DNA of 64,000 nucleotides from positions 1 through 64,000 of the forward strand of contig JALFJX010000004.1 of NCBI GenBank assembly GCA_022775905.1, given 5' to 3'. Below are positions 4,325-36,316 of this stretch, piece by piece. Under the pieces are notes generated by a model that worked only from the letters and a program-made list of their open reading frames with translations, was not told the DNA's origin and did not search any database. Made by a program: the position numbers and the translations under genes. Source of the DNA: Methanobrevibacter sp. (GTDB taxonomy: Archaea > Methanobacteriota > Methanobacteria > Methanobacteriales > Methanobacteriaceae). Position 1 is the stretch's first letter, and the number at the start of each line of letters is the position of its first letter.

Positions 4325-5524
4325 TTATTTATCACTTGCAGATAAACCTGCTAGATATCCAGTTGAAAAGGCAATTTTTAAATTATATCCTCCTGTTGGA
4401 CCATGAACATCCAAAACTTCACCTGCAAAGTATAAATTAGGAACAACAGTTGATTCCATAGTTTTTGAATTTATATTAGTTAAATCAATACCTCCAACAG
4501 TCACTTTAGCCAAATCCCCATTAAAACCAGTTATTTCAAATGAAAACCTTTTTAAATTTTCGATTAATCTGTTTTTACTTTTTTTATTGACTCTGGACAA
4601 TTGAGTTTCACCATCAATACCCGTTTCATTTAAAAAGAAGTCTATGAATCTATTTGTTAAGAATTGCTTCAAATAGTTTTTAATCATTGCTTTTCCTTTA
4701 AAATCTTGATTAAATTTTTCATTTAACTCCTCACGTGTGAAATCAGGACATAAATCTATAGCAATATTAAAATTAATATCAGGATTTTCCTTTTCTAATA
4801 AGTTATAACTTATAACTTCTGAGATTTCATTACTCAAATCAATTATTCCGGGACCTGTCATCCCAACATGTGAAATTAAAACATTACCTCGAACCTTAGT
4901 TTTCTTATAACTTATAACAACATCATACAACGTTACACCAGCAATACTTGACAAATCTTTCGCTGTAATTAAAGGAGATAGGCCATATTTGATGTCTGTC
5001 AATGGCTGTTCAGTAAGAGAATAATTCCCAATATTGCAACCTGTTTGCGGGTAAGTCATACCCCCTGTTGCAATAATAATCTTGTCTGCTTTTAACTTAT
5101 CATTAATAACAAAATCTTCACTTATACTTTTAACTTCAAAGTTATAACTTATAACTACATCTTTCAGGTAATCTATTAGAATATTAAGAACATCCTTAGA
5201 TTTCTCACTTTCAGGAAATATTCTATTATTATCTTCTTCAATGAAATTTAATCCTTTATTTTCAAAAAATGAGAGTAATTTTTCATTAGTAAGTGTATAA
5301 AAAGAGTGCTTTAAAAAATTTTTTTGAGGATAGAATTTTAATAGCTTTTTTATCGGTTTTGCATTGGTAATATTACACCTACCACCACCACTCATTAAGA
5401 GTTTACGACCTAGTTTAGAGTTTTTTTCAAGCAATATAACGCTTGAGGAATTCTGACTTGCAGCAATTGCCGCCATGATTCCCGCTGGTCCGCCGCCAAT
5501 AACAGCTATTTCATATTCATCCAT
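4325..5524 (-). CDS. BaiN/HI0933-family FAD-dependent oxidoreductase
   Basis: Flavoprotein of the HI0933 / BaiN family (399 residues); physiological substrate unknown. The N-terminal dinucleotide-binding motif GGGPAGIMAA (about residues 10-19) and MSGGGRCNITN near residue 45 are typical, as are GGMTYPQTG (about 155) and the C-terminal FAGEVLDVHGPTGGYNL block that closes the FAD site. The family has been linked to bile-acid double-bond reduction in bacteria, but that role should not be transferred here. Unusually, the coding DNA holds three copies of a 14-15 bp motif (minus strand GTTATAAGTTATAAC and a variant), each encoding V-I-S-Y; the motif also occurs near parA. It stands apart from neighbours by 22 bp and 75 bp. 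Confidence 0.88.
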   Translation of the reverse strand: MDEYEIAVIGGGPAGIMAAIAASQNSSSVILLEKNSKLGRKLLMSGGGRCNITNAKPIKKLLKFYPQKNFLKHSFYTLTNEKLLSFFENKGLNFIEEDNNRIFPESEKSKDVLNILIDYLKDVVISYNFEVKSISEDFVINDKLKADKIIIATGGMTYPQTGCNIGNYSLTEQPLTDIKYGLSPLITAKDLSSIAGVTLYDVVISYKKTKVRGNVLISHVGMTGPGIIDLSNEISEVISYNLLEKENPDINFNIAIDLCPDFTREELNEKFNQDFKGKAMIKNYLKQFLTNRFIDFFLNETGIDGETQLSRVNKKSKNRLIENLKRFSFEITGFNGDLAKVTVGGIDLTNINSKTMESTVVPNLYFAGEVLDVHGPTGGYNLKIAFSTGYLAGLSASDK

Positions 5525-11881: not shown

Positions 11882-12508
11882 TTAGTATTCATCAAATAAA
11901 GCCCATATTTCAGGGTATTTTTTAGCAACAGCTTCTTCAATTAACTTAGAAGCCTCTTTAGAAATACTAAACTCCGGTTCAGTTTTTCTTAAGTATCTGA
12001 AAACAGCCGAAGATCTTGAAGACCATAAAGTTATTCTTGGATTTTTATCGACAATTTCTTTAACTTCAGCTACATGTTCCTTAACTTTGAGTTCTTGTGG
12101 TGTCGGTAAACCCTCTTTGCCACCTTGTATGCCAGATACCACTTCGGATTCTTCAGTATCCACCTGTATCTCTTTTTTGATGACATCTTCATCGGAATCA
12201 ATAGAATTTTTTTGATCATTTTTTTCTTCCTCTATTTGTTCGAATATATTTTTTTGAGTATCATCATTGTCATTAGACACTTCAACAACAGGAGTCTCTT
12301 CTTCTATATCGCTGGAAAGTTCTTCATTAGGAGTATTTTCTTCATTAATATCTTCAGACTCTTCAATTATTGTTTCTTCTTCAGGAACTTTATCTTCAGT
12401 TTCATTCAACAAATCTTCAAGGGAAAGTGTTGAATTACTATCAAAATCTTCATTGTAAAAATCAGGAATTAATGAATCTAAACCTTTTCCAAGTCCTTTT
12501 CTAACCAT
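11882..12508 (-). CDS. ParA-partner protein with ParB-like N-terminal peptide, no ParB DNA-binding domain
   Basis: A 208-residue protein of unrecognised overall family. Its first residues, GLGKGLDSLIPD (5-16), closely resemble the N-terminal peptide with which bacterial ParB/Spo0J stimulates the ParA ATPase. About 110 residues of very acidic Glu/Asp/Ser-rich linker follow (roughly 20-130), then a compact C-terminal segment of about 70 residues (with TLWSSRSSAVFRYLRKTEP and EAVAKKYPEIWALF). No ParB nuclease-like fold, parS-binding helix-turn-helix or Walker motif is visible. Its ATG shares one base with the parA stop codon, so it is translationally coupled to parA; GGAGG lies just before the ATG. 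Inferred role: regulator or cargo adaptor of the ParA ATPase. Confidence 0.75.
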   Translation of the reverse strand: MVRKGLGKGLDSLIPDFYNEDFDSNSTLSLEDLLNETEDKVPEEETIIEESEDINEENTPNEELSSDIEEETPVVEVSNDNDDTQKNIFEQIEEEKNDQKNSIDSDEDVIKKEIQVDTEESEVVSGIQGGKEGLPTPQELKVKEHVAEVKEIVDKNPRITLWSSRSSAVFRYLRKTEPEFSISKEASKLIEEAVAKKYPEIWALFDEY

Positions 12509-13347
12509 TATTTTCCTCCAGCAACTTCAGAATTATTTTGAACTTTATCCATTGATTTGACCATATTCAATTGAATATTTTCATCTCTTTGAATAATTTC
12601 CTTTGCTAATTTTAAATAAGCTTTAGTACCAGTACTGTCTGGATCATAAATTAAACAAGGTTTACCATAACTAGGAGCTTCAGCTAACCTAATATTTCTT
12701 GGAATAATTGTTTTAAATAGTAAATTTGTTCCACCAAAGTATTTTTTAAGCTCTTTATGAACATCTTTACTAAGTCTAGTTCTTTTATCAAATAGAGTGA
12801 GGAGAATTCCTTTGATTGGAGTTGGACTTCTAAGTCTTTTTTCGACTAATTTAATAGTATTAATTAAATCAGCTACTCCCTCAAGTGCATAATATTCAGC
12901 TTGGATAGGTATTAAAACACTATCTGAAGCTACTAATGCATTGACTGTTATGACACCTAATGAAGGAGGTAAATCGATGAATATGTAATCAAATAATGGT
13001 GCAACATCTTTAAGAGTTTCCTGTAAAACTATATGATAGTTTTCACGTCTGGAAAGCTCCATTCCTGCTCCACTAAGAGATATATTACTTGGGATAATAA
13101 ATAAATTTTTAATAAACGTAGGAATTGTTGCTTTTTTAACACTAATATCCCCTATAAGAGCATCATATATTGTATTTTCTATCTTAGTTTTATCAATCCC
13201 AAAACTAGTTGTAGCATTAGCTTGGGGATCCATATCTACAACTAACACAGATTTACCCATTACAGCTAGAGATGTTGCAGTATTTACAACAGTAGTTGTC
13301 TTACCACAACCCCCTTTTTGATTCATCACCGCGATTATTTCACTCAT
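12508..13347 (-). CDS. parA: ParA/Soj-family ATPase
   Basis: Chromosome- or cargo-partitioning ATPase of the SIMIBI class, 279 residues. The deviant Walker A motif KGGCGKTT (residues 11-18) contains the signature Lys, followed by the switch I-like DMDPQANAT (about 40-48) and the Walker B-like FIDLPPSLG. Length and lack of an N-terminal helix-turn-helix resemble chromosomal Soj rather than plasmid P1-type ParA; MinD is less likely because no amphipathic C-terminal helix is evident. It is followed, with one-base overlap, by a protein carrying a ParB-type ParA-contact peptide, and is preceded by a 420-bp field of AACTT/AAGTT repeats. This arrangement suggests a partition-like cassette. Confidence 0.9.
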   Translation of the reverse strand: MSEIIAVMNQKGGCGKTTTVVNTATSLAVMGKSVLVVDMDPQANATTSFGIDKTKIENTIYDALIGDISVKKATIPTFIKNLFIIPSNISLSGAGMELSRRENYHIVLQETLKDVAPLFDYIFIDLPPSLGVITVNALVASDSVLIPIQAEYYALEGVADLINTIKLVEKRLRSPTPIKGILLTLFDKRTRLSKDVHKELKKYFGGTNLLFKTIIPRNIRLAEAPSYGKPCLIYDPDSTGTKAYLKLAKEIIQRDENIQLNMVKSMDKVQNNSEVAGGK

Positions 13348-13767
13348 TTAAGAATTCTCCTATATCTGATAAGTTTTAAGTAATCAGGTATAACTTAAAA
13401 CTTAAAAATTTAAAGGGTTAAAAGAATAACTTCTCAGTTATTCAGTATAAGTTAAAAGGATTAAGTTAAATCTTTTCAGGTAAAACTTAAAAGGAATGAC
13501 TTATCAGTTTTAACTTCTAAGGGATAGGAATTAAGTTTTAAGTTAAAACGTACAAGTTATAAAAAATAAGTTTTAAGAAATAACTTATCATAACTAACTT
13601 TTAACAAATAAGTTATATTTTATAACTTCTTCCTTATAAAGTATTTGTTTTCACAAATAAGTTATTAGTTATTTGTTAATAGTTATAAGTTATAAGTTGA
13701 ATAAAATGATAACTTATAAGTTATAACAATGAAAAATAATAAAAAAATAAAGAAAATAAAAGGGAAG
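13348..13767. repeat. AACTT/AAGTT repeat field between trpB2 and parA
   Basis: A 420-bp gene-free stretch in which AACTTA/TAAGTT words recur every 10-30 bases. Four related units begin TCAG at 13384, 13442, 13476 and 13504 (pattern TCAG-n-TAnAACTTAAAAGGA). AATAAC and GTTATT face each other at 13425-13442. At the trpB2 end there is a 16-bp perfect palindrome, ATAACTTATAAGTTAT (13709-13724), and two one-mismatch copies of GTTATAAGTTATAAC (13682-13696 and 13713-13727). The region also has to hold the parA promoter and the trpB2 terminator. Candidate centromere-like or autoregulatory binding region for the parA locus. Confidence 0.7.
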
Positions 13768-23560: not shown

Positions 23561-23630
23561 GTTATAACTTATAACTTATAATATATAAATCAAATAAAAA
23601 ATATAAATTACCAGTTATAACTTTTAAGTT
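23561..23630. repeat. Intergenic copy of the parA-region motif
   Basis: The 115-bp spacer between two convergent genes contains GTTATAACTTATAAC at 23561-23575 (exact reverse complement of the 15-mer found in the BaiN gene), immediately continued by another ACTTATAA, and CCAGTTATAACTTTTAAGTT at 23611-23630, which resembles the TCAG-led units next to parA. It may also act in termination of both genes. Confidence 0.6.
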
Positions 23631-23650
23631 AAAATAGTAAAAAATAAAAG

Positions 23651-34232: not shown

Positions 34233-35160
34233 AATATTTAGATTAAAGAACATAATTTCCGTGAAAGATTTTGAAAGAGAAGATATTGAATATATTCTAA
34301 ATGAAGCATCAAAATTAGAAAATATTGCCAAATCTAGAGAAATATCTGAAGAACTTAAAGGAAAAATTCTTGGGTTAATGTTTTTTGAACCTTCAACAAG
34401 GACTAAAATGTCATTTGAAACATCCATGAAACGTTTAAGTGGAGAATGCATTGGATTTGAAAATAGTGGATCTAGTTCAGTTTCTAAAGGTGAAAGTATT
34501 GCAGATACTGCAAAAATGTTTGAAGGATACTGTGATGCATTAGTTATAAGACATGAACTTGAAGGAGTATCAAAGTTTATTTCAGATGTAGTGGACGTGC
34601 CTGTAATCAATGCAGGTGATGGTGCTGGTCAACATCCTACCCAAACATTACTCGATTTATATACTATTAAAAATGAAATTGGAGAAATTGACAATTTAAA
34701 AATAGCTTTAATCGGTGATTTAAAATTTGGACGTACAGTTCACTCATTATCACATGCTTTAGGATTATTCAAAAACATTAAAATATATTTAATTTCACCA
34801 CCTGAACTTAAAATGCCACAGGAAGTTCTTCATGATTTGAATAAAACAAATGTTGAATATGAAGAAGTAGGTTCAATTGAAGAAATAATCGATGATGTAA
34901 ACGTTTTATATGTAACTAGAATACAAAAAGAACGTTTTGCTGACGTTAATGATTATTTAAAAATAAAAGGTGCATATGTCATCAATAAAAAATTAGTTGA
35001 AGGAAAAGATTTAATCATAATGCATCCATTACCAAGAATTGATGAAATAGACACTGATGTTGATAATACAAAATATAATAAGTATTTCACACAGGCAGCA
35101 AATGCTGTTCCTGTGAGAATGGCTATTTTAAAAACATTGATAAAAAACAACCCTAAATAG
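34225..35160 (+). CDS. pyrB: Aspartate carbamoyltransferase catalytic subunit
   Basis: Condenses carbamoyl phosphate with aspartate in pyrimidine synthesis. The 311-residue sequence carries the carbamoyl-phosphate motif [12 protein letters not shown] (near residue 52), the [11 protein letters not shown] loop near 134, [12 protein letters not shown] and [10 protein letters not shown] near the C terminus. No ATG exists near the family N terminus, so the TTG overlapping the previous gene by 8 bp is taken; slightly later starts are possible. pyrI is not adjacent. Its stop codon overlaps that of orc1 within a shared hairpin. Confidence 0.95.
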
Positions 35161-35175
35161 AGAATAGGGTTGTTT
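35145..35175. terminator. Bidirectional hairpin across the pyrB and orc1 stops
   Basis: Perfect 11-bp arms AAACAACCCTA (35145-35155) and TAGGGTTGTTT (35165-35175) with a 9-base loop. The arms contain the coding ends and stop codons of both convergent genes, so one structure serves both. Confidence 0.65.
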
Positions 35176-36316
35176 CAAGTAATGTTTCATCGCATTGAAG
35201 CTTGATAATATTAGTTCTTCCTTTTCCACGACCACGTGAAATTGTGTTAGTAGATATTATTCCTAACATTTCAAGCTCGTTAATAAAGTCAAATATTCTT
35301 CTGTAAGTAACTGCATCTTTTTTATATAAATCTGTATAAGCTTCATATAATTTTCCAGATGTAATTTCTTCTTTTTGTTTAGTTAAATTTAAAATAGACT
35401 CTAAAACTCTTTGTTGTTGAAGAGGTAAAGTGGATATGATTTCAATGACTTTATTATGTTCAATTTTATCTTTTGCTCTTTTTACATGATCATTTGTAAC
35501 TTTTGGAGAATCTTCATCAAAAGCTAATTCACCAGCATTTTTAAGTAAATCAAGAGCATACCTTGCATCACCCTCTTCTTTAGCAGCCATTGCTGAACAT
35601 AAAGGAATAACATCACTTTCAAGTACATTTTCATTGAAAGATATTTCTGCCCTTTCATTTAAAATATCAGACAATTGACCTGCTCCATAAGGTGGGAAAA
35701 CAATTTCTTTATCATTTAAACTACTTGTAACTCTAGATTTAATTAAATTTTTGAAATCTAAATAGTTACTAATACATAAAATAGAAACATTGTCTGTTCT
35801 GGTAAGAGTATATAAGATTCCATCTCCATCTTTATCAAGTAAAATATCAATTTCATCTAAAATAACAATTAAATGTAATTTTTTACCAAAAGCATTAGTT
35901 GACTTGAAAATATCCCTAAATGTATTTACAACTTCACCTTTAGTCCAACCACGATTTGGAACATCACGTCCAAGTTTATTACATAATTCTGCAATTACTT
36001 GATATTCAGTTGTGTAATCAGTACATCTAACATATTCCACTTTTACAAAAATACTTTTTTTACGAGCAATATCCATTAATTGCTCACGAGCAAATTTAGA
36101 TGCAGCTGTTTTACCAGTTCCAGTTTTACCATACAAAGTTACATTTGAAGGAGTTACATCACTTAATACATCAACCCAATATTTTGCAATTTGTTTTATT
36201 TGCTCTTCCCTGTGAACTAACTTATCAGGTAACCACCTATGATCCAATGGACGTTTATCCTTAAATATACTGGGTCCCTTTTCATCATTTTCCAATTGTT
36301 CAAAAATATTTGTCAT
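35153..36316 (-). CDS. orc1: Orc1/Cdc6 replication initiator
   Basis: AAA+ ATPase (387 residues) that binds origin recognition boxes and loads the MCM helicase. GKTGTGKT at residues 63-70 is Walker [13 protein letters not shown] near 145 is Walker B with the initiator-specific extension, CISNYLDF near 180 includes sensor 1, and [14 protein letters not shown] near 255 is sensor 2. The C-terminal 90 residues are the winged helix that reads DNA. The gene is transcribed away from an adjacent 630-bp region with several exact boxes, the classic archaeal layout of an initiator beside its own origin. Confidence 0.96.

Follow-up and report, generated by a model that had tools for sequence, protein, structure and literature searches.

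The locus described here probably encodes a methanobacterial SegAB chromosome-partition system with an origin-proximal centromere of 7-bp repeats, in which DNA binding and function are predicted from the genes and sites reported below. It lies in a window of 64,000 nucleotides from Methanobrevibacter sp. (contig JALFJX010000004.1). The system is probably a hybrid machine, in which a bacterial-type ParA and a genuine ParB ParA-activation motif, carried by an archaeal SegB ribbon-helix-helix (RHH) protein, act on an origin-proximal TAA(C/G)TTA iteron centromere. If true, this would be, as far as known, the first defined euryarchaeal chromosomal centromere.

The segAB gene pair and the putative DNA-binding domain of SegB

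The ORF check showed that segA (12508-13347) and segB (11882-12508) lie on the minus strand and overlap by one base (TAATG), just as the first-pass annotation had read their coordinates, strand and overlap. The segA gene encodes a ParA-type Walker ATPase of 279 aa (Pfam AAA_31, E = 1.6e-62), and segB, supported by its ORF and orthologues, encodes a SegA partner of 208 aa. The neighbour beyond segA is a trpB-like gene, and the 420-bp gap in between holds the heptad array. The N-terminus of SegB reads MVRKGLGKGLDSLIPD and is followed by an acidic low-complexity linker and a compact C-terminal domain (residues 142-208; 11885-12085, minus strand).

A profile of this domain, made from the last 70 residues of 29 sequences, was compared with all PDB sequences by hmmsearch. 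The only significant matches were SegB structures 7dv2 (E = 1.4e-10) and 7duv (E = 2.1e-10), spanning 65 positions, and omega of pSM19035 was absent from the matches of this search. The residues common to the profile and SegB were PxI..WS....vLxYL..TxPxF..S..A.......K..YP. In the PDB sequence search, a profile built over the full length of 14 short members matched SegB with E = 5.4e-13, and the match reached the SegB N-terminus. The AF2 monomer of the domain (pLDDT 81.6) showed the expected helices and no strand, which is expectable for a single chain of an intertwined dimer. The top two Foldseek matches of the predicted domain were 7duv and 7dv2, both weak (E = 1.6 and 4.2). Because the AF2 monomer lacks the strand and the Foldseek match is weak, the assignment to the RHH DNA-binding domain of SegB, with FSIS as the putative beta strand, rests on sequence profiles. 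SegB has been described as an RHH protein whose N-terminus is unstructured (PMC12284271), and it wraps DNA in the manner of omega (PMC9178275); in 7dv2 it was solved in complex with DNA.

Other assignments of the partner were rejected. The Pfam matches of segB to DUF6735, DUF5800 and Rap1a were scattered and below cut-offs. The helix-loop-helix pattern of the domain also suggested a histone fold (H2B matches with E of 0.06-0.5), and SegB was the better match by at least 8 orders of magnitude.

The segB protein had no Pfam or NCBIfam match above cut-off and ParB_N (PF02195) was not found in the genome, in agreement with the earlier view that the partner has no ParB fold. The first-pass annotation was also literally right that the domain has no helix-turn-helix, but the domain is still related to a DNA-binding RHH protein. 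Its proposal of an undescribed, unrelated domain does not hold, as the profiles matched SegB at 1e-10 to 5e-13. Because the partner domain matches SegB in the profile searches, the gene pair is, by homology, the methanobacterial segAB. Its proposal of an undescribed partition system falls as well, since SegAB is published from crenarchaea and euryarchaea (PMC5120986, PMC12284271).

The organization of the locus resembled that of SegAB of Saccharolobus solfataricus (SegB 7duv and 7dv2; SegA 7dut). The two systems share the segA-segB order and overlap, homology of the SegB domain across about 65 residues and an unstructured SegB N-terminus. The candidate sites upstream of the methanobacterial segA resemble the S. 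solfataricus sites in being based on a 7-bp palindrome with a central G/C.

The cargo of the system is most likely the chromosome, through the heptad array, which the first-pass annotation had not mentioned. ParA/MinD ATPases position many cargoes (PMC12462528), and an adaptor composed of tail, linker and domain would suit any of them, as in McdAB- or MinD-like systems. The C-terminal domain would then bind a protein cargo, which the first-pass annotation had allowed for. Such non-chromosomal positioning is very improbable, as the domain is homologous to SegB, solved with DNA (7dv2), and the heptad array and the proximity to orc1 indicate DNA.

The ParB-type motif and the bacterial-type SegA

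The motif LGKGLDSLI occupies residues 6-14 of SegB (12467-12493, minus strand). An LGxGLxxL(I/F)-type motif was present near the start of all intact partners examined except one, which has GLGKGINSLF; some ParBs also have a variant of this type. L6, G7, G9, L10 and L13 were invariant among 36 aligned full-length partners, whose mean column identity was only 28%. Near-universal presence and five invariant residues at such low identity indicate that the motif is not a chance resemblance. We take its likeness to the ParA-activating motif of ParB from established knowledge of Spo0J/ParB N-termini. A direct search of the 20-residue N-terminal peptide against PDB sequences gave no match, the query being too short. 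The first-pass annotation had regarded this N-terminus as nearly the ParA-activating peptide of ParB/Spo0J, with no relation to ParB in the part of the protein that would bind DNA. Both parts of this view are borne out: MVRKGLGKGLDSLIPD is a near match, and its motif is conserved in the orthologues. SegB probably stimulates SegA. Given the full ParB-type motif found here, the published statement that SegB has nothing in common with ParB should be qualified.

The segB linker (residues 20-136; 12101-12451, minus strand) is acidic, variable and probably disordered, with pLDDT mostly <50. Its length ranged from almost nil to about 200 residues among orthologues, and the total length of the partner was 94-288 aa across the class Methanobacteria. 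The acidic linker of the first-pass annotation is therefore real, and the orthologue lengths and pLDDT show it to be variable and predicted disordered.

The closest solved relatives of SegA were bacterial chromosomal ParA/Soj proteins. SegA matched bacterial ParA 8ray with E = 3.7e-71 and Sulfolobus SegA 7dut with E = 8e-18. In M. xanthus ParA, the leucines L150 and L152 contact ParB (PMC12462528). With residue 60 used to align the numbering, these leucines appear to fall within the PPSLGLLTLN loop of M. xanthus ParA. SegA retains this PPSLG loop, which reads PPSLG(V/I/L)(I/L)T(V/I/L)N in nearly all methanobacterial SegAs.

These features set the methanobacterial proteins apart from those of S. 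solfataricus. Methanobacterial SegA is far more like bacterial ParA than like S. solfataricus SegA. Methanobacterial SegB has the full LGxGLxxLI, whereas S. solfataricus SegB, with its N-terminus taken from the 7duv alignment alone, aligns only from LDFLLKKK onward, which corresponds to the latter half of the motif (LDALIKK). Bacterial ParABS (Soj/Spo0J) shares the ParA type, the N-terminal ParA-contact motif and the origin-proximal position, but the methanobacterial partner has neither the ParB/Srx CTPase domain nor a helix-turn-helix, and the genome has no ParB_N gene. The full ParB-type motif and the bacterial-type ParA look like new variant features of SegAB, a known system, in this little-studied branch.

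The heptad array and its position near orc1

The heptad array TAA(C/G)TTA (13371-13723, no strand) is a candidate SegB centromere and segAB operator. The 420-bp gap contained 21 AASTT cores (S = C/G), compared with a mean of 2.1 per 420 bp in the window. Sixteen of the 21 shared one strict 7-bp phase over 266 bp (13428-13698), in both orientations. The aligned unit was TAASTTA, a palindromic heptad with a central C/G that tiles seamlessly. Methanobrevibacter-type loci had 5-21 phased cores within 300 bp upstream of segA, and 100 dinucleotide shuffles gave at most 5 for any locus. Periods of 5, 6, 8, 9, 10 and 11 gave far fewer phased cores than period 7. With one mismatch allowed, the maximum was 26 phased units, upstream of segA in one Methanobrevibacter locus.

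Forty further loci, including those of Methanosphaera-like and Methanothermobacter-like genomes, were scanned. TAASTTA ranked first among the 64 palindromic heptads upstream of segA in 39 of them. Its density was 16.45/kb upstream of segA and 0.37/kb in the remainder of the loci; outside Methanobrevibacter, the values were 5.18/kb and 0.31/kb. Seven composition-matched palindromes showed no comparable excess upstream of segA. Of 2037 heptad pairs, 1686 were spaced by a multiple of 7 (291 expected), as were 48 of the 72 pairs from outside Methanobrevibacter (10.3 expected). Nearly all other genera had only 2-6 copies of TAASTTA upstream of segA, mostly phased. No description of the array, or of SegB in Methanobrevibacter, was found in the open-access literature. 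The array is conserved and apparently undescribed, and it is a strong candidate centromere.

One locus among the 40 scanned (L224, genome G139) has segAB and no TAASTTA upstream. In its SegB, the strand that putatively contacts DNA reads PGFSIS and not PEFSIS, and Sulfolobus SegB likewise has PGF. From this genome, it is possible that the SegB strand and the DNA site covary.

Published work on SegB and omega bears on what binds the array. For SegB, the core site in the literature is AGA(g/c)TCT, a 7-bp palindrome with a central G/C, clustered near segAB (PMC12284271). Sulfolobus sites carry AGASTCT in imperfect palindromes, whereas the candidate methanobacterial sites are TAASTTA in phased arrays. 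The 2025 SegB study anticipated that euryarchaeal sites near segAB would have diverged, and it found none; in Thermococcus it reported no sites near segAB and supposed sites of quite different sequence (PMC12284271). Omega of pSM19035, the best studied RHH partition protein, binds contiguous arrays of 7-bp sites with one dimer each, and at least 4 heptads are needed for full activation of its ParA (PMC9499535). The parS of pSM19035 consists of 7-10 contiguous heptads (PMC9499535, PMC9178275). Because of the published SegB core, the heptad arrays of omega and the diverged sites expected near segAB, SegB is the likely binder of the array. The euryarchaeal SegAB cis-site was previously unknown, and the array in Methanobrevibacter and its relatives is a testable centromere candidate.

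The resemblance to delta-omega of pSM19035 is an analogy of working only, and we claim no homology of omega to SegB. On the reading proposed here, both systems have an RHH centromere-binding protein with an N-terminal ATPase-activating tail. In both, the region upstream of the par genes carries 7-bp repeats that are contiguous and occur in either orientation. Delta-omega differs in being from a bacterial plasmid, in its non-palindromic heptad WATCACW (versus TAASTTA) and in its N-terminal peptide.

A pattern search found hundreds (454) of single TAASTTA copies genome-wide. In the source genome, adjacent heptad pairs formed clusters on this contig, at 4.8-5.2, 13.4-13.7 and 23.6 kb, whereas those found elsewhere were isolated. 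Of the clusters, only that next to segA forms a long phased array. One minor cluster (4799-5151, no strand) has five perfect heptads and lies about 8 kb from segA, within the coding sequence for a flavoprotein. The other (23565-23631, no strand) consists of adjacent heptads between convergent genes, about 10 kb from segA. The genome-wide count of adjacent heptads was not above the reversed control, so that we claim only the local clusters.

With so many copies in the genome, and with the link between SegB and the sequence being one that we infer, the heptads might bind a protein other than SegB, such as a different RHH regulator or a factor that binds the origin. We regard this as improbable: the array tracks segA across genera, its tiling of palindromic heptads fits both the core site of SegB and the architecture known from SegB and omega, and it lies about 22 kb from orc1 and not beside it.

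The orc1/cdc6 replication initiator gene (35153-36316, minus strand; TIGR02928, E = 4.2e-119, and ORF) is about 23 kb from segAB and likely marks the origin region. Distances were determined in 17 genomes with segAB and orc1 on one contig, as circular distances for single-contig genomes. In 11 of the 17, segAB was no more than 25 kb from the best orc1 match. Three Methanothermobacter-like genomes had a distance of about 40 kb and G019 one of 84 kb, and in G139 and G141 (2/17) it was about 200-310 kb.

In another genome (G036), a cluster like that at 4799-5151 of the window was observed at a similar distance from segAB (C1:371093-371445). More adjacent heptads were found in this genome at C1:603428-603519, about 3.5 kb from a second orc1/cdc6 gene (C1:607004).

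The position of the array directly upstream of segA could also mean that the heptads are an operator only, with SegB repressing its own operon and the centromere lying elsewhere, or SegAB mainly compacting the chromosome. The omega sites of pSM19035 overlap promoters (PMC9499535), and the 2-6 copies in genera other than Methanobrevibacter would suit an operator. On the other side, about 20-26 copies over 300 bp are far beyond the needs of an operator, the minor clusters no more than 10 kb away and the proximity to orc1 suit a centromere, and in pSM19035 the operator and centromere roles coincide. We consider the operator-only reading possible but rather unlikely.

Proposed mechanism and distribution of segAB

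Under the SegAB partition reading, SegB would bind DNA, stimulate the ATPase of SegA and serve segregation. SegB dimers would grip the TAA(C/G)TTA heptads beside segA and in the smaller nearby clusters through their RHH domains. There would probably be one dimer per heptad, giving a nucleoprotein filament at the origin-proximal centromere. From this filament, the flexible acidic linkers would hold out many copies of the LGKGLDSLI motif, which would contact the SegA dimer in its ATP- and DNA-bound state and set off ATP hydrolysis. The origin region would most likely be moved or positioned in this way, through a diffusion ratchet of the ParA type. The array upstream of segA probably also autoregulates segAB.

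The partner was detected in 123 of the 139 family genomes, with all 17 genera represented. Across the phylum, 108 of the 115 better genomes had its C-terminal domain, and three additional families were among them. In nearly all fetched partner loci, parA was directly upstream on the same strand, with a spacing of -20 to +451 bp. The profile search of the C-terminal domain, which had been suggested in the first-pass annotation, thus placed the domain next to parA across the class Methanobacteria. In 16 family genomes, one of which is 99% complete, segB was undetected; there the gene may be dispensable or may have fallen into gaps of the assembly. Since 14 of the 16 also lacked this ParA, SegA and its partner were lost, or missed by assembly, together.

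Related proteins were observed on two contigs of the IMG/VR viral collection. One (L156:953-2468) encodes a ParA and a SegB-domain protein starting with MAKRSVMGKGMDALF, a variant of the motif, with repeats in its linker. From this contig, segAB-like cassettes may occur on mobile elements. On the other (L155:5027-6204), ParA overlaps a SegB-domain protein whose start has no clear LGxGL and instead carries repeated KxLxLKDKGL-like units.

The Methanohalobium plasmid pMETEV01 (L187:1760-3285) encodes a SegB-like domain protein after an ATPase that is not ParA, and it was set aside as evidence for SegAB for this reason. Upstream of this locus is a 7-bp direct repeat, TATAAAG, in three copies. Judging by this plasmid, heptad arrays may accompany the SegB-like domain more widely.
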